Position numbers and translations under genes: made by a program. Shown piece after piece: positions 187 to 22,153 of a DNA stretch of 51,420 nucleotides. The stretch is from the NCBI GenBank assembly GCA_943704525.1, contig CALSCQ010001224.1, positions 1 through 51,420 of the forward strand, given 5' to 3'. Every line of letters begins with the position of its first letter. Within the stretch, counting starts at the first letter, position 1. The notes beneath the pieces were generated by a model. The model ran no database searches. It was not told the DNA's origin and worked only from the letters and a program-made list of their open reading frames with translations. This DNA comes from Pigoraptor vietnamica (Eukaryota; Opisthokonta; Filasterea).

Positions 187-633
187 GAATAGCTGTGTGT
201 GATGATTAGGCGGGAAAGATTTGCGCGCCATGGATTTTTGTGAGGGAGTCGGATAAAAGTGGTGTTCACTATGGGAAATGTATGAAAATGCGCACAAATT
301 GAGCACACGGGGCGGATCAAAGGGCTGCTCACTATGGATTAACTATGGGATCAGCAGTGTAACCAAAAATTTGAATTGAGTTAGTATGACTAACTATGGA
401 GGAGAAAAATTGACAAATGGTCGGATAAAATGCAACTTCACTATGAGTTCACTATGGAGATCCTAAATCACTATTGGATTTCCATAGTCAAATACTATTG
501 GAAAAATTCATACTTTGGCCCAACACACTTTTCGTGCCCATCACTGTTTTCGAGTGTGTCGCCACACACACACACAACACACACACCCTCCTCCTCGCAG
601 TAAATCTTCCCGCCTTTCCCCCTCGATTCCTCA

Positions 634-1022
<389 letters not shown>

Positions 1023-1083
1023 ATGCCCCTTTGCCACCGACGAACGTCGACTCGGTCTCGCGACGGCGAACCACAACCCAACT

Positions 1084-1100
1084 GGTGTTTTTTAAACACC
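1084..1100 (+). terminator. Possible histone mRNA 3' stem-loop of H4
   Basis: GGTGTTT-TTT-AAACACC forms a perfect 7-bp hairpin 62 nt after the H4 stop and is followed by ACCCCC. Animal replication-dependent histone mRNAs end in a GG-start, CC-end hairpin with a T-rich loop followed by ACCCA, so position, sequence and flank all fit. The stem is one base longer than canonical. A purine-rich AAGGA lies about 15 nt further on, where a downstream element would be expected. Confidence 0.55.
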
Positions 1101-2114
1101 ACCCCCACACCTCAAGGATCTTTTATCATACCTATGTGCTCGCCTTTGCTTGTGTGGCCTTGTGGCCCTGCGAGGTTGAATTTTGTTGTCACACGTCTGT
1201 ACTATTGGTTGGAGTTGCTGCTTCATGCCTTACGCTCCGTGTGTGGCCTCGTGCTTTAACAGATGCTGCTGTGGCGGCATGAACATGGCGCTTTGTATTG
1301 CTCAATGGTCACGGGCCCGGCGGTGTGAGTGCGTAATTGCTGACGTTGTATGTTGTCATACAATTTTGTAGGACTCAACTTTGCAGCGGATGCGTGACCA
1401 AAAATGCGCGTTATTGTGTAACAAGTATTGTATTGTTTCTGTGGACCGTGGTTGCTGGCTGATCACTTGACGGACGACTCCATGTCCCTCGTCTTGAGAT
1501 ACAATCGTTGCTATCTGACCGCGTGCGATGTGCCCTGGCTCCATTTCGGGCCTGCTTTTCCTAAACCAACCATGCAATACGTGGTACTATGGACAACATG
1601 CAGTAAGCACCTTTGTCAGATACGCTGCGCACACGCGCACACGTGCACACGCACACAGACGTCCTAACTGTGAGCAAGTCTGCGCTCGCGTGGGCGTGGT
1701 CGAAGGTACGGCCGATGCGGTTGTTGGAGGAAAGTCTCCTTGCCGAGCACCAATCGAGCAACAACAGACGCACGCGAGCAGATGCAGTAGACCCTGCGAA
1801 CCAGCGTTGTAACGAGTCGCAATGACTGCCCGTCCATTTCTTCAGCTTAAACAATATGTGACAAGGACGAGAACACAGACGTACGCCACGGGCATGCAAT
1901 CGACTGTTGCAACTACCACCTGGCCGCTCGCGCTCACCAAGGTCTCGTTTTCGCTTCGCCCCCGCGTCTCTACCCCTTCTGTCTCTACCCCTTCTGTTGC
2001 CTTTTCCTCTCTCCCACCTCCTTCGTTTTTTCCCCTTCCCTTTTTCATTGTTACGCACGCTGCGCACGCAAAAGTCGACCGACAGCCGGAATAATGGCAT
2101 CGCGGACACGGTTC
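1101..2114. other. Intergenic region between H4 and LRR1 3' ends
   Basis: No convincing gene. It contains a short CA-rich stretch near 1625-1660, a CT-rich stretch near 1970-2050 with a repeated TCTACCCCTTCTG unit, and one isolated ACTATGG at about 1586. Open frames here are short and lack recognisable protein signatures. Confidence 0.5.
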
Positions 2115-3236
2115 TCAATCTTTCCTCCGTTCCCCGCGCCCTATCACCGGTGGTTGGAAACCAGCGGCGACATCAAACCCTCTTATTCGATTGATAATGT
2201 ACGCATCAATGGTACGACTGTAGCCGTCCCATCGACGCAGTTCCAGCGGAAGGCCCTCACAGCAGACTGTGTTGAGCACTCTCACCGACGAAAGCGCCGA
2301 AATGTCCGTTATGTTGACGCAGAAGGCGATATCAAGCTCACGCACACCCCCGAGCATGCTCACGTCACGCACGGGCGTCTCGCGAAGCGACAGCCTGCGC
2401 ACGCCCGCGAGCGCAGAGACGTCCTCCACTGGGCAATGGTCGAGCACGAGGGTGTCGACCCCGCCGAGTGCAGACACATCGCGCACGTTCATGCACCACG
2501 ACAGGTCCAAATACTTGACGGAACGAAGCGACGACACGTCCGAAAATGAGCCAAATATGCGCAAGTAAGTCGCATTCCCAAGCACCGCAACATCGGCGTC
2601 GTCGGCAGCCACAACGCTCACGCACGTCGACCGCGCAAGGGGCGAGAAATCGCCAGTGAAGTCCCCCAAACACACGGTGTGGACGCCCTCCAATGCGCGC
2701 ATGTCCCTCGCGAGCGGACAACTGCTCATACCGAAGTAGCGCAGGCGACCGTTCGCCAGCGGAGACAAATCGACGAGCGAGTCCAAGAATGAAATCTCGA
2801 GCACTTCGACGTTGCGCAGCGCACTGAGGTCCGTAATGTTGTGACTGTGGCTGAAGCGCAGCGCAACGGCCGACCCAAGCACGTCGAGGTCGGCGTTCGT
2901 GAAGGGTATCGTGTTGCGCACATCGAGCGTGCGGAACCCTCGCAGCGCCGACACGTGCTTGAGCACACGGATATTGGACAAATCAACGAGTGTGTGCTCG
3001 CGCGGGAAAATCGAAGGAAACGCCGTGTCGTCCGTACACAGCCTGCTCGCTGCGTCGCATTGGAGAACGAACGGGCGCACGCGCGACACGAGCTCACGCA
3101 GGCTGCGGTTGACCTTGCGCACGGCCACAACCTCCTTGTCCCCAAGATAGGGCACGACATGCGACAGAAACACCTCCACAGGAAGGTCCAACAGGAGACT
3201 GCGCCCGTGCGAGGGAGGAAGAGAGTCTTCGCACAT
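2115..3236 (-). CDS. F-box / leucine-rich-repeat protein (copy 1)
   Basis: Intronless, 373 residues. Residues about 14-55 look like an F-box (LLLDLPVEVFLSHVVPYLGD followed by a VRKVNRSLRELV helix), the module that docks to Skp1 in SCF ubiquitin ligases. The rest is short LRRs of about 20-22 residues of the form LxLxxCxxVxDVSALxGV, many ending DVSAL or DISAL. The start at 3236 (MCEDSL) matches the start of copy 3 (MCDDAL); an upstream in-frame extension is not shared by the paralogues. Homologues lie at 15569-16695 and 17104-18270. A substrate-recruiting role in ubiquitylation is inferred from architecture; the target is unknown. The F-box is divergent, so a purely structural LRR role is the alternative. 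Confidence 0.8.
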   Translation of the reverse strand: MCEDSLPPSHGRSLLLDLPVEVFLSHVVPYLGDKEVVAVRKVNRSLRELVSRVRPFVLQCDAASRLCTDDTAFPSIFPREHTLVDLSNIRVLKHVSALRGFRTLDVRNTIPFTNADLDVLGSAVALRFSHSHNITDLSALRNVEVLEISFLDSLVDLSPLANGRLRYFGMSSCPLARDMRALEGVHTVCLGDFTGDFSPLARSTCVSVVAADDADVAVLGNATYLRIFGSFSDVSSLRSVKYLDLSWCMNVRDVSALGGVDTLVLDHCPVEDVSALAGVRRLSLRETPVRDVSMLGGVRELDIAFCVNITDISALSSVRVLNTVCCEGLPLELRRWDGYSRTIDAYIINRIRGFDVAAGFQPPVIGRGERRKD

Positions 3237-4072
3237 TGCTTCGTGACCGTGTGAACGAGCGCAGGGAGAGATGCCGGCGACGCAAGTGCCACTCTCCGCA
3301 GTCGCAGCGACGAGTGGACTCCCCCGCTCGGCCACGCCCATCGCAGCGCGCTCTGTCGCCATGGGTGAGAACAAAAGCCTTTCTCACTTGGAGATGGACG
3401 CGTCGCTGTTACCGAGCCAGTCACCACTGCCGGTCACTCTCCACAATCAAAAACTGCCCATTTACGTTCGGAAATGGAGGCGCCCTTCGACGTTCTCGGT
3501 TTTGACGCCCATCCCCCCATCGATGGGCCAACGCACTTCACAAAAAAAAACACAGCGTGACAACGGCCATCTTCGGCCATCACGTGACCTCCATATCAGG
3601 CCTAATTCGGACGCATTCCTCAAGTAAGTCCCAGCCAATCGGAGCGAGGGGTGTCGGCATGCACGGTCACACAGTCCCACACGCACGCACACACGCACGC
3701 ACACACCTCTCTCGCCTCGTACACTCTGCGTCATGGCACCCCCGCGCATTTTGACGTGCTTCATGTGGCTATCTTTACTCAAAGAGCAAAACGTAATTCA
3801 AATTTATCTTCCCGTTTGTGTTTGCGGCGACACTCAAAAGGGGCGTGTCGCCATTCGCGGCGTGGCTATTCATCTTTTCTCACCACTCGGATAACCCGTT
3901 TCTATCTCGTCACTCTCCGTCCCCACGTCCGCGCATTTGTGAGAGGGGCACCTCGTCTTCTTCGCTTCTCTGTTGGTGGCTCAAAAGCGGTTCGAGTGGT
4001 TGCTGCGTCGCGTGCACGTGCGTCGACATTGGCTGACGAGCGGTTGACGCATCGACTCCGACGTACGGTGCC
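3237..4072. other. Divergent spacer between LRR1 and ABHD18
   Basis: Upstream region of both genes. Bases 3255-3300 resemble the 5' flanks of LRR copies 2 and 3 (a GGCGACG...CACTC block), so the LRR promoter was duplicated with the gene. A CA-rich tract lies at 3680-3712. No coding exon recognised. Confidence 0.45.
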
Positions 4073-13370: not shown

Positions 13371-14632
13371 TCAATCATATCCGATCCCGTTTCCGTCCGT
13401 GACGTAAGGGTTCTCAGCCGGGCTGACTGGACGGCTGGCGTCGCACACAAACAGCTCGACGTCCGTGATGCGCTCGGGGCCGCTGCCTCCGTAGAAGATG
13501 TCCCCACGCGAGTAGGAGCCCATTTTCGACGACCAGTTGTCTCGCTTGTCCGCCAAGTTGTTGACGGTGAGTTCGCCGTTGCTCCCGAACGCGCACGTCT
13601 TCCCCGTCGGCGTCACCGTGTTGTACGTTGTGCATTCGAAGATGGCCGGCGCCATGGGCTTGCCAGTGTTTCGCAGCACGAAGAGTTTCGTCGACATGGT
13701 TGTGCCCCGCGTGAGATGCTGCGTCGAGAGATTGGGAATGCCCGCACCGAAGAGCACCGACTTGGTCCTGAAAACGGCAATGATTTGCTTCCCCGTCGAG
13801 CCCCTCGCGCCGTTCGTTGGCTGTGGAATGCGCGCGTGGAAGTCCGCGGGCGAGAACCCGTCCCGCGTCGCCCTGTAGACGAGGCTCCACACGCGTCCGT
13901 GCGACGGTGGAAACCACGCGAGGAGTTGCGTGCGCTGGGCGCCGTCCAGCAGCGCAGTGCCTTCGAACGACGGCGTCGGAAAGTAGTCGGCGCCGAGCTC
14001 TCGGAAGAGCCGCCCGAGCAGCGCGTTCATGTCCTTCGTGCTCTCCTTGATTGCGCCGTACTTGGAGGGCTGCTGCGTCGTCTGCTCATCGACCTCTCCG
14101 ACGGCGACTTGGACGATTTCGAAGTTGGCCTGGAACCGGCGCAGCGCATCGACGATAATCTCCTTCTCCTTCAGCATGTCGAACTTGTCCACGACGCGCA
14201 TCATGTCGTCGTTGAGGCGCTTGATGTCCTCCCACGTCTTGGGTGCGTAATTCAGCTTGTCGCTGCGTCAGATTACGGGCCTCAGCACATACTTCAGGGG
14301 GCACGGCATAGCTCAGGGAGTGCGCGACGGCAGCAGCCGACCCACTTGAAGATGTCCGTAATCCCGGCGTCCATTTTCCCGCGGAAGGTCCATTCGTCGA
14401 GGAGGCTGTCCATGGCAACGCTCGTCGCCGTCTCGCTCACCGTGAACTTTGGGGACGTCTCGCTGTTTCCTGCACGTGCCTTGAGCGTTGCTTTCGATGC
14501 GCCCTCCTCGCACTTGTCGACGAGGCGCAGGGGATAGGAGTACGTCGTGAAGCTGCCCTTTGCCTCGACTTTGGCGATAATCTCGTTGTTGATGGCGTGG
14601 ATCGCCCTTATCATCTGCACGAGCTCGTCCAT
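13371..14632 (-). CDS. TLDc-domain protein, copy A (Hsp70-lid-like N-terminus)
   Basis: Two exons, 14346-14632 and 13371-14262, separated by an 83-bp intron; 392 residues. The start MDEL is shared by all three paralogues. The C-terminal half (about 200-375) reads as a TLDc domain: VWSLVYRATRDGFSPADFH, a KQIIAVFRT strand, a LFVLRN strand, an FGS..GELTV strand and a final GDIFYGG...ITDVELF. TLDc domains occur in OXR1/NCOA7, where they bind V-ATPase. The first 115 residues (EIIAKVEAKGSFTTYSYPLR, then DEW, then DIF-DKL) resemble the Hsp70 C-terminal lid. That is a family-pattern judgement, not a search result. Function is unknown; stress response or V-ATPase control would be the first guesses. 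Neighbours are LRR/F-box genes on the same strand. Confidence 0.8.
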
Positions 14633-15568
14633 ACTGCCGGTGGGGTGGACGCCGCCTCTGTTTGTGGTCGTTCGTTGACAGTCTGTTTGGTTTTTGTGCC
14701 GAAGGCAAGTCGGTTGCATTGGACTTTCAAACGAGGCACGTGTTATTCCCGACGCTCGGTTAGCCGGCCAGGTTATCTTGATCCTCCGGGTTACCTTTTC
14801 GGTGTGCAGTTGTCCAACTCGGTAGTCTGATGCAGGGGTACTCCCGTGACTACCCCTGGTCTGATGTGTCCAGGGCTTAAAAGCGCCCTTGGTGTGCGTG
14901 CAAATACGTGGTGCATGTGTGCGTGTGGGCGGGGGAGGGGGAGTGAGGTCCGTGAGCTACGGGCAGTAACTACCCTGTGACGGTGCCGGCTGCCGCCTAT
15001 ACTAATACAGCCGCTGCCCGGCGCCGGCGGACGGCTGCCGCCGGCCGCCGGCGTCCTCCAACATTGGCTAAGGCGCAGACCGCCAATTGTGTTGAGCGCC
15101 GTTCAACGACGAAAACGCAGAAGGGCCTCTTAAAAATGCAAAGATTGCAATTAGAACTTGCAGATACTTTTTTGCCGTAGAAAGCTTTGAGAAGTGTGGT
15201 AGCCCAGTTCATGTTAGTTACTAAATTTAAGGCGTCCGTCTTTCACGGCGCCACTCAATCGGACACTCGAACCCCGCGATGGTCACCCACGTCGGACGAG
15301 CCAGCGCAATGTGCAGCCGGAGCCGACGCAGTGGACCCCAGCATTGCGCTTGAAGCAATTGAGTCTCCAAAATGTCCCGCACTCATTTCTCAGTTTGAAC
15401 CCCATTCATTTCAGCGATGGGTGACAACTGAGACAGGGAATACAGGCGCGCACGCACACTGACCCCAATCGGAGACGCACGCTGCGTGCACACAACTCAC
15501 CGACAGCAAGAACGACGGCACGGCGACAGCATGCTCAACGTCTAAAAAATGGAGCGCAGACAAAGTTC
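14633..15568. other. Spacer between TLDc A and LRR copy 2
   Basis: Carries TLDc A's upstream region with the hAT-like palindrome (14825-14866), an imperfect palindrome near 14871-14891, a GC-rich CCGCCGG block (15005-15060), and the 3' flank of LRR copy 2. Bases 15380-15475 match 16955-17060, the flank of LRR copy 3, so the duplication extends past the coding region. Confidence 0.5.
14825..14866. mobile_element. 26-bp hAT-like palindromic mini-element with 8-bp TSD
   Basis: GTCTGATG occurs exactly on both sides (14825-14832 and 14859-14866) of a 26-bp near-palindrome (14833-14858) that starts CAGGGGTACTC and ends TACCCCTG. Eight-base target duplications and termini beginning CAGGG are the hallmark of the hAT superfamily. 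The element consists only of its two inverted ends, so it is non-autonomous. A second copy with a different 8-bp duplication is at 22110-22153. Confidence 0.72.
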
Positions 15569-16695
15569 TCAACGTTTCCTCCGTTCCCCGCGACCTATCA
15601 CTGGTGGTCGGAGGCCAGCAGCAGTCCACCAGCTCATTCGATTCGAGATGTAGCCTCCCATGGTATAGCCGTAGCCGTCCATTCGCCGCAAATCCTCCAA
15701 AAGGCCCGTACAACCGTATGTGTTGAGCACTTCCACCGACGAAAGCGCCGAAATGTCCGTTATGTTGATGCAGAAGGCGATATCAAGCTCACGCACACCC
15801 CCGAGCATGCTCACGTCACGCACGGGCGTCTCGCAAAGCGACAGCCTACGCACGCCCGCAAGCGCAGACACGTCCTCCACTGGGCAATGGTCGAGCACGA
15901 GGGTGTCGACCCCGCCGAGTGCAGACACATGGCGCACGTTCTTGCAGTGTGACAGGTCCAGATACTTGACGGAACGAAGCGACGACACGTCCGAAAATGA
16001 GCCAAATGTGCGCAAGTAAGGGACATTCGCAAGCACCGAAATGTCGGCGCAGTCGGCTGCCCCTACGCTAACGCACGTCGACCGCGCAAGGGGCGAGAGG
16101 TCGCTGAACCGCAAATACTCCAAACACACGGTGTGGACGCCCTCCAGCGCGCTTATATCCCTCACGAGCGGACATTTGCTCATACGGAAGTAACGCAGGC
16201 GACCGTTCGCCAGTGGAGACAAATCGACGAGCGAATATAGGCCATAAATCGCGAGCACTTCGACGTTGCGCAGCGCAGAGAGGTCCGTGATGTTGCGGCT
16301 GAGGCTGAATTGCAGCGCAACGGCCGTCCCAAGCACGTCGAGGTCGGCGTTCGTGAAGGGTATCGTGCAATACACATCGAGCGTGCGGAACCCTCGCAGC
16401 GCCGACACGTGCTTGAGCTCTCGGAAATCCGACAAATCAACAAGTGTGCGCTCGCGGGGGATGGTCGAAGGAAACTCTTTCGACGCCCTGTCGTACAAAC
16501 ACAGCCTCCGCGCTGCGTCCCGTCTCAACACGAACGGGCGCACGCGCGACACGAGCTCACGCAGGCTGCGGTTGACCTTGCGCACGGCCGCAACCTCCTT
16601 GTCCCCAAGATAGGGCACGACATGCGACAGAAACACTCCAGGGGAAGGTCCAACAGGAGACTGCCGTGCGAGGGCGAAAGAGAGTCGTCGCCCAT
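15569..16695 (-). pseudogene. F-box / LRR protein, copy 2 (frameshifted)
   Basis: Homologous over its whole length to copies 1 and 3, with the same LRR series and a tail almost identical to copy 3 (MDGYGYTMGGYISNRMSWWT). Starting from MGDDSL at 16695 the frame is lost inside the F-box: where copies 1 and 3 read AAACACCTCCAC on the plus strand, this copy reads AAACACTCCAG (near 16631-16640), one base short. The LRR part stays open for over 1.1 kb in the new frame, so the lesion is recent, a sequencing error, or bypassed by another start. The F-box half MGDD..LLLDLPLE and the LRR half are in different frames. An alternative upstream start in the LRR frame gives an unrelated leader. Confidence 0.75.
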
Positions 16696-17103
16696 TGCTT
16701 CGGGGGGACGGTGTGCACGAGCGAGAAGAGAGTTGTCGGCGACGGAGTGCAAAGCCACTCGCCAGGGCGCAGTAATAAACGTTCTCCCTTGCTCCCACTG
16801 CCCGAGGCGAGCCGCTAATTTACGATCGGGATCAGATCGGAATTTTGGAGCACGACCTGTACGCTGGAGTGAGGTGGCCGGGCGGCCGCACCTTTGCTCC
16901 CTCGAAACGACGCTGCAAACCGAGCGTTGCGCCTGAATCAACTGGATCCTCAATATATCGCGCTCATTTTATCGGTTTGAACGCCATTCATTCAGCGATG
17001 AGTGCCAGAGACACTTCTGCCGATAGCGTACGCACGCACACTGAAGCCGAATAGGGAACGCACGGCCGGCACAAGCCTCAGACAGCGGCAAGATAGCCGG
17101 CAT
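16696..17103. other. Spacer between LRR copies 2 and 3
   Basis: Copy 2 promoter on its left end (GTTGTCGGCGACGGAG at about 16733, also found at 18309 before copy 3) and the copy 3 trailer. No gene. Confidence 0.45.
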
Positions 17104-18270
17104 TCAGCTGAGTTCCGAACGTTCAAAAAACCGCGCGCACACAAAACTCTCAGCGAAGTTCCTCCGTTCCCCGCGCCCTCTCACCGGGGGTACGAGCCCA
17201 GCAGCGGTCCACCAGCTCATTCGGTTCGAGATGTAGCCTCCCATGGTATAGCCGTAGCCGTCCATTCGCCGCAGATCCTCCAAAAGGCCCGTACAACCGT
17301 ATGTGTTGAGTACTTCGACCGACGAAAGCGCCGAAATGTCCGTTATGTTGTTGCAGAACGCGATATCAAGCTCACGCACACTCCCGAGCATGCTCACGTC
17401 ACGCACGGGCGTCTCGCGCAGCGACAGCCTGCGCAAGCCCGCAAGCGCAGACACGTCCTCCACTGGGCAATGGTCGAGCACGAGGGTGTCGACCCCGCCG
17501 AGTGCAGACACATCGCGCACATTCCTGCACCACGACAGGTCCAAATACTTGACGGACCGAAGCGACGACACGTCCGAAAATGAGCCAGATATATGCAAAT
17601 AAGGCACATTCGCAAGCACCGAAATGTCGGCGCCGTTGGGGACCGCGACGCTCACGCACATCGACCGCGCAAGGGGCGAGAGGTCGCTGAACTTGCCCGT
17701 CACATGCACAGTATGGACGCCCTCCAGCGCGCGTATGTCGCGGACGAGCGGACATGCACTCATACTGAAGTAGCGCAGGCGACCGTTCGCCAGCGGAGAC
17801 AGATCGACGAGCGAGTCCAAGAAACAAATGTCGAGCACTTCGACGTTGCGCAGCGCAGAGAGGTCCGTGATGTTGGGACTGTGGCTGAAGCGCAGCGCAA
17901 AGGCTGTCCCAAGCACGTCGAGGTCGGCGTTCGTGAAGGGTATCGTGCAGTACAGATCGAGCGTGCAAAACCCTCGCAGCGCCGACACGTGCTTGAGCTT
18001 GCCGAAATTCGACAACGGAACGAGCGCGCGCTCGCGGGGGATGGTCGAAGGGAACTCTTCCGACGCAGTGTCGTCCGTACACAGCCTCACTGCAGCGTCC
18101 CGTCGAAGAACGAAAGGGCGCACGCGCGACACGACTTCACGCATGCTGCGGTTGACCTTGCGCACGGTCGCAACCTCGTTGTTTACGAGATAGGGCACGA
18201 CATGCGACAGAAACACCTCCACGGGAAGGTCCAGCAGGAGATTCCGCGGAGAAAGAGCGTCGTCGCACAT
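17104..18270 (-). CDS. F-box / LRR protein, copy 3 (intact)
   Basis: Intronless, 388 residues, starting MCDDALSPRNLLLDLPVEVF. F-box-like at about residues 8-50, then LRRs of about 20-22 residues with DLSAL/DVSAL endings. Compared with copy 2 the repeats are mostly identical, with differences concentrated in the central repeats. The usual family stop after RGERR is missing: the frame runs about 14 residues further (FAESFVCARFFERSELS). The probable role is substrate recognition in an SCF ubiquitin ligase, by architecture only. Its 5' flank shares sequence with copies 1 and 2, and it sits head to tail with copy 2. Confidence 0.8.
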   Translation of the reverse strand: MCDDALSPRNLLLDLPVEVFLSHVVPYLVNNEVATVRKVNRSMREVVSRVRPFVLRRDAAVRLCTDDTASEEFPSTIPRERALVPLSNFGKLKHVSALRGFCTLDLYCTIPFTNADLDVLGTAFALRFSHSPNITDLSALRNVEVLDICFLDSLVDLSPLANGRLRYFSMSACPLVRDIRALEGVHTVHVTGKFSDLSPLARSMCVSVAVPNGADISVLANVPYLHISGSFSDVSSLRSVKYLDLSWCRNVRDVSALGGVDTLVLDHCPVEDVSALAGLRRLSLRETPVRDVSMLGSVRELDIAFCNNITDISALSSVEVLNTYGCTGLLEDLRRMDGYGYTMGGYISNRMSWWTAAGLVPPVRGRGERRNFAESFVCARFFERSELS

Positions 18271-18685: not shown

Positions 18686-20065
18686 TTAACTTTCTTCACT
18701 ATGATATGCCGCCCTTGCGCCAAACTCGGACGAAAACACCTCAACGTCGGCGATGCGGTCGGGTTCCGTTCCGCCGTAAAAGATGTGTTCGCCGTACTTG
18801 CCGTTGATGCCTTCCGGGTTGGAGCTCCAGTTTCGACGGTTCGCTGAGAGGTTGCCGACATTCAACTCGCCGTCGTCGCCCACACTCAGCATACTGGACT
18901 CGTGCATTGTGTCGTTGATAGCCAACGAGCGCGAGAGGACGACTGGGCCCACCCGCGGTTTTCGCAAGTTGCGTAGTACGAAAAGCTTCGCAAACACTCT
19001 CTGGCACGTGGATTCGGAAAAGTGAGCGTTCGTGTCCGACAAATACGCACCAAAGAGCGCCGCTGTCGTCCGTAATACCGCAACCATGTGATGGCGCGCG
19101 GACGATTCGGTCTGCGCGGTGGGAATGCGCGCGTGAAAGTCCGCGGGCGAGAACCCGTCCCGCGTCGCCGTGTAGACGAGGCTCCACACGCGTCCGTGCG
19201 ACGGCGGAAACCACGCGAGGAGCTGCGTGCGCTGTGCGCCATCCAGCAGCGCAGTGCCTTCGAACGACGGCGTCGGAAAGTAATCCACTCCCAGCTGTAC
19301 GGAGAGGTCGCCAAGCAACCTGTTCAAGCGACTCGTACCCTCCTGGACGCTGTCGTACTTGGAGGGCTGCTGCGTCGTGCGCTCGTCGACCTCTCCGATT
19401 GCGACTTGGACGATCTCAAAGTTGGTCTTGAACCGCCGTAGAGCGTCGACGACCGCGTCCGTCTCTCGAAGCAGAGCAAACTTGTCCACGACGCGCATCA
19501 TGTCGTCGTTCAGTCGCTTGACGTCTTCCCACGTCTTGGGCGCGTAATCGAGCCTGTTGCTGGCGGTGTGTGCATTCGGCATTGAGTTGACTGTGCCGGT
19601 GCCAGCGCAAGATTTTGTCGTGATTGCACTGCTTATAAAGAGCACGGTTTGAACGCACACAATGAGTGTCCGCGTTTGACGCAACAAGCACCACAATAGC
19701 GAATGCATGCGACATCTTTTGAACTGAAGCGCTCGCAAGAAGGCGCGGACTGTGCAGTTATCGAACGATGCCCGAGCAACCCACTTGAAAATATCCTCGA
19801 CGTTCCCGTCCAGTGTCTCGGCAAACCGCCACTCTTCCAGCACATCCTGCACGTAGACCGTCGCGGTCGTCTCGTGCACCGCAAACGTGGCGCGTGTGTC
19901 CCTATCGGCCCCGGTGTTTGCGCCTGCGCCACCGGCACAGCCGTGTGTGTTGACGATGTGCAGCGGGTACGAATAGACGCTGAAGCTCTCCTTCGCCTCA
20001 ACCTTTGCGATGATCTCCTTGTTGACGACGCCAATCGCCCTCAGTTTCTGAATGAGTTCGTCCAT
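18686..20065 (-). CDS. TLDc-domain protein, copy B
   Basis: Exons 19785-20065 and 18686-19559; 384 residues. It has the same plan as copy A: MDEL start, EIIAKVEAKESFSVYSYPLH, VLEEWRF, DIF junction, then NRLDYAPKTWEDVKRLNDDM and a C-terminal TLDc domain (LLAWFPPSHGRVWSLVYTAT, FYGG...IADVEVF). The intron sits at the same codon and phase as in A and C. Unusually, this intron is 225 nt, a multiple of three, and has no stop in frame, so an unspliced mRNA would code for 75 extra residues. Splicing is preferred because A and C share the junction and the intron translation looks random. Function unknown, as for copy A. Confidence 0.78.
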   Translation of the reverse strand: MDELIQKLRAIGVVNKEIIAKVEAKESFSVYSYPLHIVNTHGCAGGAGANTGADRDTRATFAVHETTATVYVQDVLEEWRFAETLDGNVEDIFKWVARASFDNCTVRAFLRALQFKRCRMHSLLWCLLRQTRTLIVCVQTVLFISSAITTKSCAGTGTVNSMPNAHTASNRLDYAPKTWEDVKRLNDDMMRVVDKFALLRETDAVVDALRRFKTNFEIVQVAIGEVDERTTQQPSKYDSVQEGTSRLNRLLGDLSVQLGVDYFPTPSFEGTALLDGAQRTQLLAWFPPSHGRVWSLVYTATRDGFSPADFHARIPTAQTESSARHHMVAVLRTTAALFGAYLSDTNAHFSESTCQRVFAKLFVLRNLRKPRVGPVVLSRSLAINDTMHESSMLSVGDDGELNVGNLSANRRNWSSNPEGINGKYGEHIFYGGTEPDRIADVEVFSSEFGARAAYHSEES

Positions 20066-20546
20066 GGGAGCTTCACTCTCGACGTCGGCACGGCTGCACA
20101 CCGTGTGTCGTCATCAACTTTTGGCAATCGGCCGAGTCCAGACACCTGAACCATCTGACAGCACTTACTGAACGGGCCGAGCTGCCCCGGTGCCGAGCCG
20201 GCGCCGCCGTGCATGCGCCCATGACGCGGATCCCTTTCACTGGGACCTTCAACATATTGCGCACTCAAACCGCACTCACACAGGTGCACATCCCTGGGCC
20301 GCGCCAGTGGATCGCGTCGTTCTGCCGGCTTGAATGCAATGACACGGCGCACACCGGCCACATCGGCCGGCCGCAGCCAGCCAGTTGGGGCGCCACGGGC
20401 GGCCCCGACTCAGACTTGGCCTTGCTGACCGGCTGGCTGGCCACTGAGGCGCCGGCAAAAGCGCACAACTTATTGGCTTAATTTTATGTGCACGCATATA
20501 TCATTGAGTCTGCTCTTGAGTCCACATCACTTCAGTTGACCGTCAA
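20066..20546. other. Spacer between TLDc B and decayed TLDc C
   Basis: GC-rich with imperfect inverted repeats around 20350-20460 (CAGCCAGCCAGTTGG against CCGGCTGGCTGGCC). No gene. Confidence 0.4.
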
Positions 20547-21849
20547 TTATATGTGTTCACACGCAAACATCTCAACGTCAGTGATTCGGTGCCGTTCCCC
20601 CAAAAAATGGCTGCCCGCGGTTGGCACTACTGCTCGAAGTAAACGACCAGTTCTCGCGAGCGGACGTCAAGTCTTTGACGGTCAGCTCGTAAGATCCAAA
20701 CGCGCACATCGCCCCGGACGGTGTCATGTCAGGGCGGTCGGTCGGCAATCGCCAAAAATTTCCGGCGTCAACGTCGGCTTGCAGGCGTTATGAAGCACAA
20801 AGAGACTCGTCGCCACGGACGATCCGAGGGGGGGATTGTCCGTGAGGTACTCCGTATCGCTTCGGTATGCCCCGAAAAGCGCCATTGATGAACGGAAGAC
20901 GACAATAAGCTTGCACTGCTTCCCGACCCTCCGGTTCTTTGTGGGAATGCGCGCGTGGAAGTCCGAGGGCGCAAACCCGTCCCGCGTCGCCCTGTAGACG
21001 AGGTTCCACGCCCGCCCCTGCGACGGCGGAAACCACGCAAGGAGTTGCGTGCGCTGAGCGCCGTTCAGCAACGTTGTGCCCTCAAACGACGCTGTCGTAA
21101 AGTAGTCCACGCCGAGCTCTCGGAAGAGACGACCGAGCACCTCGTTAATGCCGTTCGTGCTTTTCAGGATATCGTCGTACTTGGAGGGTTGTTGCGTCGT
21201 GCGCTCGTCCACGTCCCCGACGGCGACTTGGATTATCTCGAAGTTGGCCTGGAACCGCCGTAGAGCGTCGATCACCCATTCCCTCTCTTTCAGCATTTCA
21301 AACTTGTCCACGACGCGCATCATGTCGTCGTTGAGACGCTTGATCTCCTCCCACGTCTTGGGGGCGTAGTTCAGCTTATCGCTGGTACAAAAGTGTCCAG
21401 TTAGTGACACGCAAAGCGCTCAGTTTGACAGTACAATTAACGCGCCACCGGCTTACAAATGCACTAGTCAGAGTGCGACGTTCGAAGGCAAGCAGATGTC
21501 ACGCAAATACGCACGTGCACATGAATACAACGCACCTGCCCAGTCCACACCAACACGTATTACGCACACACGCACACGCCAGCCAACACCCACAGCACTT
21601 ACTTGAAGGTATCCACAACGTCGGCATCCAGCGTCCCGTTGAAACGCCATTCTTCCAGCACATCCCTCACGAAGATAACAGCGGCCGTCTCGCTCACCGA
21701 AAACGCGGCCTGTGGACCGCCAGCTTTCCCATCGCCAACGAGTCGTAAGGGTACGAGTATCTCGTGAAACTATCCTTCGCCTCCACCTTGGCGATGATCT
21801 CCCTGTTAACGGTGGAAAGAGCCCGCAGCTTCGCGATGGGTTCGTCCAT
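20547..21849 (-). pseudogene. TLDc-domain protein, copy C (decayed)
   Basis: Recognisable along its full length from MDEPIAKL (21849) to the TDVEMF end (near 20560) but broken at three points. Exon 1 loses one base near 21748-21751, where SYP should continue as LRLV. Exon 2 (from 21381) shifts near 20730-20735 after EIFGDC, and again near 20590-20600 within FFGGTAP. The intron (21382-21602) still has a good GTAAGT donor and CAG acceptor at the family position, so the gene was once normal. The middle of the TLDc domain is intact (AWNLVYRATRDGFAPSDFH). No function is expected. Confidence 0.8.
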
Positions 21850-22109: not shown

Positions 22110-22153
22110 GTTAGGCCCAGGGGTACTCACGGGTGAGTACCCCTGGTTAGGCC
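22110..22153. mobile_element. 28-bp hAT-like palindromic mini-element with 8-bp TSD
   Basis: GTTAGGCC lies exactly on both sides (22110-22117 and 22146-22153) of a 28-bp palindrome (22118-22145). Its arms, CAGGGGTACTCACG and GGTGAGTACCCCTG, pair at 13 of 14 positions. The ends match the element at 14833-14858, but the target duplication differs, so these are two independent insertions of one family. The CAGGG start and 8-bp duplication indicate hAT. Confidence 0.78.

Follow-up and report, generated by a model that had tools for sequence, protein, structure and literature searches.

Palindromes of 26–28 bp between 8-bp duplications in Pigoraptor vietnamica as probable excision scars of a P-like DNA transposon

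Two duplication-flanked palindromes near TLDc genes

The window, by which we mean the whole analysed stretch of 51,420 nucleotides of Pigoraptor vietnamica DNA (contig CALSCQ010001224.1), corresponds to contig C497 in an assembly of 32.5 Mb and 1395 contigs, among which none under about 10 kb was met. Three minus-strand TLDc-like ORFs lie inside the window within a stretch of ~8 kb (13371–14204, 18686–20101 and 20724–21410) and constitute a local family, with two members above the Pfam cut-off (Table 1). The minus-strand ORFs at 2115–3374, 15569–16798 and 17104–18270 are likewise similar to each other and represent a local gene family with leucine-rich repeats; LRR_4 matches both of the two ORFs scanned, and the start of all three presumably resembles an F-box.

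The earlier note on this DNA had placed two palindromes with exact 8-bp duplications upstream of TLDc genes, and indeed they are located 708 and 629 bp upstream of the two ORFs above the PF07534 cut-off (distances to ORF starts, not to established gene starts). At 22110–22153, a perfect palindrome of 28 bp is enclosed by two copies of GTTAGGCC, and at 14825–14866 the duplicated octamer GTCTGATG surrounds a palindrome of 26 bp. The duplications and both lengths are as had been described, except that the shorter palindrome carries a single arm mismatch at 14850, because of which the exact-match count for its right tip ends at 8 nt.

Table 1 Positions in the window of the parts of the two sites and of the neighbouring TLDc ORFs
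Feature	Position	Strand	Basis
8-bp target duplication, left copy GTTAGGCC	22110–22117	+	direct reading, window scan
Left element tip kept, 15 nt, equal to intact end CAGGGGTACTCACGG	22118–22132	+	intact-end comparison, census
Right element tip kept, 13 nt, reverse complement of CAGGGGTACTCAC	22133–22145	-	intact-end comparison, census
8-bp target duplication, right copy GTTAGGCC	22146–22153	+	direct reading, window scan
8-bp target duplication, left copy GTCTGATG	14825–14832	+	direct reading, window scan
Left element tip kept, 11 nt, CAGGGGTACTC	14833–14843	+	direct reading, census
Right element tip, 15 nt, substitution at 14850 (C; intact tip has G)	14844–14858	-	intact-end comparison
8-bp target duplication, right copy GTCTGATG	14859–14866	+	direct reading, window scan
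ORF with TLDc match, near scar at 22118	20724–21410	-	PF07534, 29.0 bits, cut-off 24.5
ORF with TLDc match, near scar at 14833	13371–14204	-	PF07534, 26.0 bits, cut-off 24.5

A motif-free scan of the window for exact 8-mer pairs (at least three different letters) 10–60 bp apart, with 5-bp complementary insert ends, returns these two sites only. As 100 Markov-1 control sequences of the same length gave nine hits in total (six with 6-bp ends) compared with two in the window, a chance origin of the palindromes was rejected. The flanks of both sites have no other match in the assembly contigs searched, and segmental duplication is therefore not their cause; flanks and duplications also differ between the sites, which supports the proposal of independent insertions. 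When the flanks of each site were joined and used to look for empty sites, the window itself was the sole match.

Intact ends, shortened inserts and target site in the assembly

The assembly does contain a larger parental element with these ends, as the earlier note had envisaged. We located five intact ends of two kinds (A and B) that have 24 exact bases in common and form an inverted repeat of ~31 bp (94% over 33 bp). On contig C336, the A end is bordered by 8 bp complementary to those beside the B end on C620, and the same applies to C996 and C719; these four ends can be read as two insertions split by assembly gaps, which together with the fifth end on C1212 would bring the intact insertions seen to at least three. 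Since all five end-bearing contigs stop after 115 bp of element, its interior and the class of its own transposase lie outside reach. The exact 24-nt element end gave 0 matches in viral_contigs and genome_contigs, collections that may omit records near the window's genome.

Both kinds of end harbour a subterminal motif with 17/18 shared bases at unequal distances from the tip (about 48 and 7 bp, by hand count), and 0/300 shuffles were as good. The 15-base core of this motif, GCGTCGTTTTAATTC, additionally occurs twice, pointing apart, at one locus of contig C723 (L098; 89980–89998 and about 90251–90265), where no element end was seen within 2 kb and tblastn with the C888 transposase (see below) matched nothing in 9.5 kb. 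Outside the element ends and C723, the core was found nowhere in the 252 kb examined (window and loci, overlapping). Owing to its occurrence at C723 away from the element, the subterminal motif is a candidate binding site at most.

The exact palindrome pattern is found at nine places genome-wide, compared with 0 for the reversed control pattern; 7/9 display an exact 8-bp duplication, one a duplication matching at 7 of 8 positions and one none. The window site at 14833 is absent from these nine because of its mismatch. The single tip CAGGGGTACTC, an 11-mer, has 68 matches versus 8 for its reversed control, namely 18 from the nine palindromes on both strands, 5 intact ends and 45 single occurrences. 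With ten GTAC joints described below, the palindromes and single occurrences amount to 64 tip-bearing non-intact places, whose duplications are exact over 8 bp in 32 cases, differ by one substitution in 8 (including L084 and L087, for which a 1-nt shift is the better reading) and by one deletion in 2, and are partial in 2 and lacking in 20. The last group probably includes some chance 11-mers, given the eight matches of the reversed control; its other members may be scars with flank deletions. Thus, of the two observations that the earlier note had regarded as speaking against insertion, copies without duplications do exist (1/9 exact palindromes and 20/64 places), whereas flanks identical for all copies were not encountered.

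Because the census was built on the 11-mer and the 14-bp GTAC joint, and hence records scars keeping at least 11 nt of one tip plus these joints, scars that are shorter or have no tip escape it, and the distribution of tip lengths is cut off below. Two places, L017 and L018, belong to one local repeat. L031 (C431) and L044 (C663) have an identical insert, similar flanks in the bases compared and no right duplication; they are perhaps not independent and perhaps represent a single scar in a segment that is duplicated or allelic.

Among the 32 places with exact duplications we counted, by hand from the census rows, 21 different inserts of 13–37 bp. Comparison with the intact end CAGGGGTACTCACGGAGGGG resolves them into one or two shortened copies of one terminal sequence, some with filler. 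Expressed as nucleotides kept from the left plus the right end, they comprise 15+13 (the window site at 22118), 15+9, 15+0, 13+0 and 9+9 with a common GTAC, and many scars carry a single tip only. The 26-bp insert 11+15 stands at three places with different flanks, and the window site at 14833 has the same joint with one substitution, given which it may be an older scar. Also recurrent at exact-duplication places are CAGGGGTACCCCTG (seven) and CAGGGGTACTCCTG (three). By reading the sequences, the filler in L053 and L067 was found to repeat neighbouring tip sequence. No left tip is longer than 15 nt at any of the 64 places (one orientation measured per place); right tips, measured at places with a located duplication, extend up to 15 nt, with 17 reached at two places (L002 and L007) whose final bases also belong to the other arm. 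A search with a 22-nt end pattern, allowing at most three mismatches, retrieved the five intact ends, the window scar and two three-mismatch matches in one C145 repeat, and nothing else.

By inspection, the longest self-complementary stretch in the tails CAGGGGTACTCACGG is GTAC, and this predicts the 14-bp joint CAGGGGTACCCCTG. A subsequent search recovered this joint at 10 places versus 0 for the control, 7/10 with an exact 8-bp duplication, and the commonest insert is the one expected from GTAC annealing. These data bear on the suggestion that the palindromes are mini-elements of 26–28 bp, mobilised autonomously and copied as units. Recurrence of identical inserts in different flanks (three, seven and three places, as given above) is what such units would produce. 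Copies of a MITE, however, have one sequence in common, whereas here 21 kinds occupy 32 places, single-sided ones without inverted repeat and some with filler among them, and the most frequent of them is the one predicted from annealing; we regard the mini-element explanation as extremely improbable.

The target site was analysed with 35 duplications. The 32 exact places contributed 31 strings, L048 and L089 having the same one, and to these were added that of L006 (7 of 8, taken in a shifted register) and those of three intact insertions. The symmetrised consensus of all 35, GTCCGGAC, is the best among all 256 palindromes, and the mean match to it is 4.31/8 versus 2.16 (s.d. 0.21) for random 8-mers, with 0/20000 sets as high. 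In PMC3276498 (Table 4), the target consensus of the P element is GTCCGGAC and that of the hAT element hobo is GTNCGNAC, so that P is favoured by positions 3 and 6 only, and modestly (31/70 symmetrised versus 29% background).

Excision model and transposase genes

We consider it highly probable that the palindromes arose when a P-superfamily-like DNA transposon, known here by its ends and scars, was excised and the break was closed by end joining. The previous suggestion of a product left by deletion of a larger parent comes close to this reading, with excision of the larger element as the event. The element would have entered a site resembling GTCCGGAC and generated the 8-bp duplication. Later, its transposase would have made a staggered cut, precisely at the element end on one strand and about 15–17 nt further into the element on its partner, leaving each flank as a duplex up to the duplication with a 3′ single-stranded tail of element sequence, and host end joining would have united the two tails. 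Annealing of the tails at the self-complementary GTAC would yield the 14-bp product, partial trimming of both tails the palindromes of 24–28 bp, for example the two window sites, and removal of an entire tail down to the duplex the 13–17-bp single tips with intact duplications; some joints may have been closed with short templated filler. We infer this cleavage geometry and end-joining route from the scars. Cleavage inside the element is supported, and with tails deduced from scar sequences its position could be either 15 or 17 nt.

Precedents come from Drosophila. According to PMC7776569, the cuts made by P transposase are staggered, one lying flush with the end of the element and that on the opposite strand 17 nt further in, so that 17-nt 3′ extensions result, and PMC2895639 (Tables 1–3) documents sequenced P excision junctions from Rad51-lacking flies with the 8-bp duplication, up to 17 nt per end and microhomology or templated filler. 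The heterogeneity of the inserts, the many single tips and the occasional filler are as expected for repair scars. Among the literature matches listed, none described P-type scars in a protist genome, judging by titles and the openings of abstracts.

CA..TG termini are a feature of hAT elements. Both these termini and the 8-bp duplication are observed here, and P has both too. If a hAT transposase had made the duplications, the fused ends would have moved as a unit or stayed behind after excision; 8-bp duplications and CAGGG termini agree with such an origin, and GT....AC within the duplication is also seen in hobo (PMC3276498). The assertion in the earlier note that CAGGG termini and 8-bp duplications define hAT does not hold, as P elements also make 8-bp duplications (PMC7776569). 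The hAT scars described in PMC3499496 are small insertions or deletions derived from hairpins on flanking DNA, whereas the present scars keep tips of 9–15 nt between intact duplications, which fits P-type cleavage within the element. The hAT models PF05699 and PF14372 had 0 matches in the contigs searched, but neither model gave a match in the controls either, so that a hAT transposase may still be present. Overall, a hAT origin, whether as scars or as mini-elements, appears very unlikely.

Abortive gap repair would also leave the duplications intact: the break would be filled in part by copying from a sister and then sealed prematurely, the interior being deleted and both ends left, and internally deleted P elements are known (PMC7776569). 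However, tips of widely varying length would be expected from this process, whereas besides the intact ends none extends past 15–17 nt in the contigs searched (22 nt, up to three mismatches), and many scars retain a single tip. We judge gap repair to be very unlikely, and retain excision followed by end joining as the preferred explanation.

P-type transposases combine an RNase H fold with a GTP-binding insertion, and the genome contains candidate genes for a transposase of this kind. PF21787 (TNP-like RNase H, N-terminal) has matches over the cut-off at two places, on C179 (L079) and C888 (L080), the latter barely at the cut-off with 24.6 bits. Relatives of the C888 protein are found on C179, C944, C1148, C127 and C597 and match in parts only. 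PF21789 had no match in the contigs searched, and no Pfam match for the THAP DNA-binding domain of P-superfamily transposases was detected in the four P-type transposase pieces scanned. Compared with solved structures at an E-value ceiling of 1, the C888 protein returned no transposase and one weak lectin match. The C888 frame (584–3733) is open for >1000 codons and shows no recognisable element ends; it is possibly an old or domesticated copy. Around C888 and C179, a first search for inverted ends with a duplication gave two weak pairs, both at C179 (5 mismatches in 14), and a second gave 5 pairs at C888 and 10 at C179 versus 6 in a control region of C888, and thus nothing beyond chance. Inspection of C944, C1148 and C127 for inverted repeats and CAGGG-like motifs, in stretches partly cut by contig ends, revealed no recognisable ends. 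We infer that the element's own transposase is of P type from the form of the scars, the target site and the presence of P-type genes in the genome rather than from direct linkage. P elements are described as preferring promoter surroundings and hopping locally (PMC7776569); both habits would suit two scars ~7 kb apart, although two sites prove nothing.

The 64 candidate places, 44 of them with a full or partial duplication, exceed the intact insertions, of which at least 3 are seen. In ciliates, DNA elimination of a comparable kind is driven by a transposase. The element might likewise be removed so regularly, by programmed or somatic elimination and not by occasional excision, that scars outnumber intact insertions. 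This seems very unlikely: the assembly breaks at intact copies, and contigs of small size are apparently absent, so that the number of intact insertions is underestimated; some scars, moreover, have since acquired mutations, as would be the case for old, fixed scars.

The scars are real, non-random and well explained. The layout of P-type excision scars is already known from Drosophila. The scars described here offer a natural genome-wide collection of P-like excision junctions in a protist genome, in which recurrent joints, GTAC annealing and filler make host end-joining habits readable from an assembly. For annotation, CAGGG ends with 8-bp duplications are insufficient for a hAT call, and a palindrome of very small size between duplications can be an excision scar instead of a mini-element. 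Of interest are the apparently non-animal host, the number of scars relative to intact copies and the target consensus common with P. Our data suggest that two traits of Drosophila P, its widely staggered cleavage and its GTCCGGAC target, extend to a distant relative.

Comparison with known transposon systems

With the hAT elements hobo and TcBuster the present element has the 8-bp duplication in common, but their reported target consensus sequences are GTNCGNAC and nnnTAnnn, respectively, and hAT scars are described as hairpin-derived flank changes (PMC3499496) without the element tips that are kept here. The zebrafish P-like element Pdre2/THAP9 resembles it in its 8-bp duplications, CA...TG ends and subterminal inverted repeats (PMC7776569 and PMC10983969), yet Pdre2 has 13-bp inverted repeats, CATACCTGTCAAC, and 400-bp spacers to the subterminal repeats. 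Compared with the Drosophila melanogaster P element, the termini differ (CAGGGG here, CATGAT in P), as do the tip limit (15 nt, or 17 only ambiguously, versus 17) and the spacing of the subterminal motif (about 48 and 7 bp versus 21 and 9); moreover, the fly junctions used for comparison are from Rad51-deficient flies, and the transposase of the present element lies outside the available sequence. Nevertheless, like Drosophila P, it has an 8-bp duplication, the target GTCCGGAC, inverted repeats of ~31 bp and a subterminal motif at unequal distances from the two ends, and like P it leaves scars with up to 15–17 nt per end between the duplications, joined at microhomologies or through templated filler.
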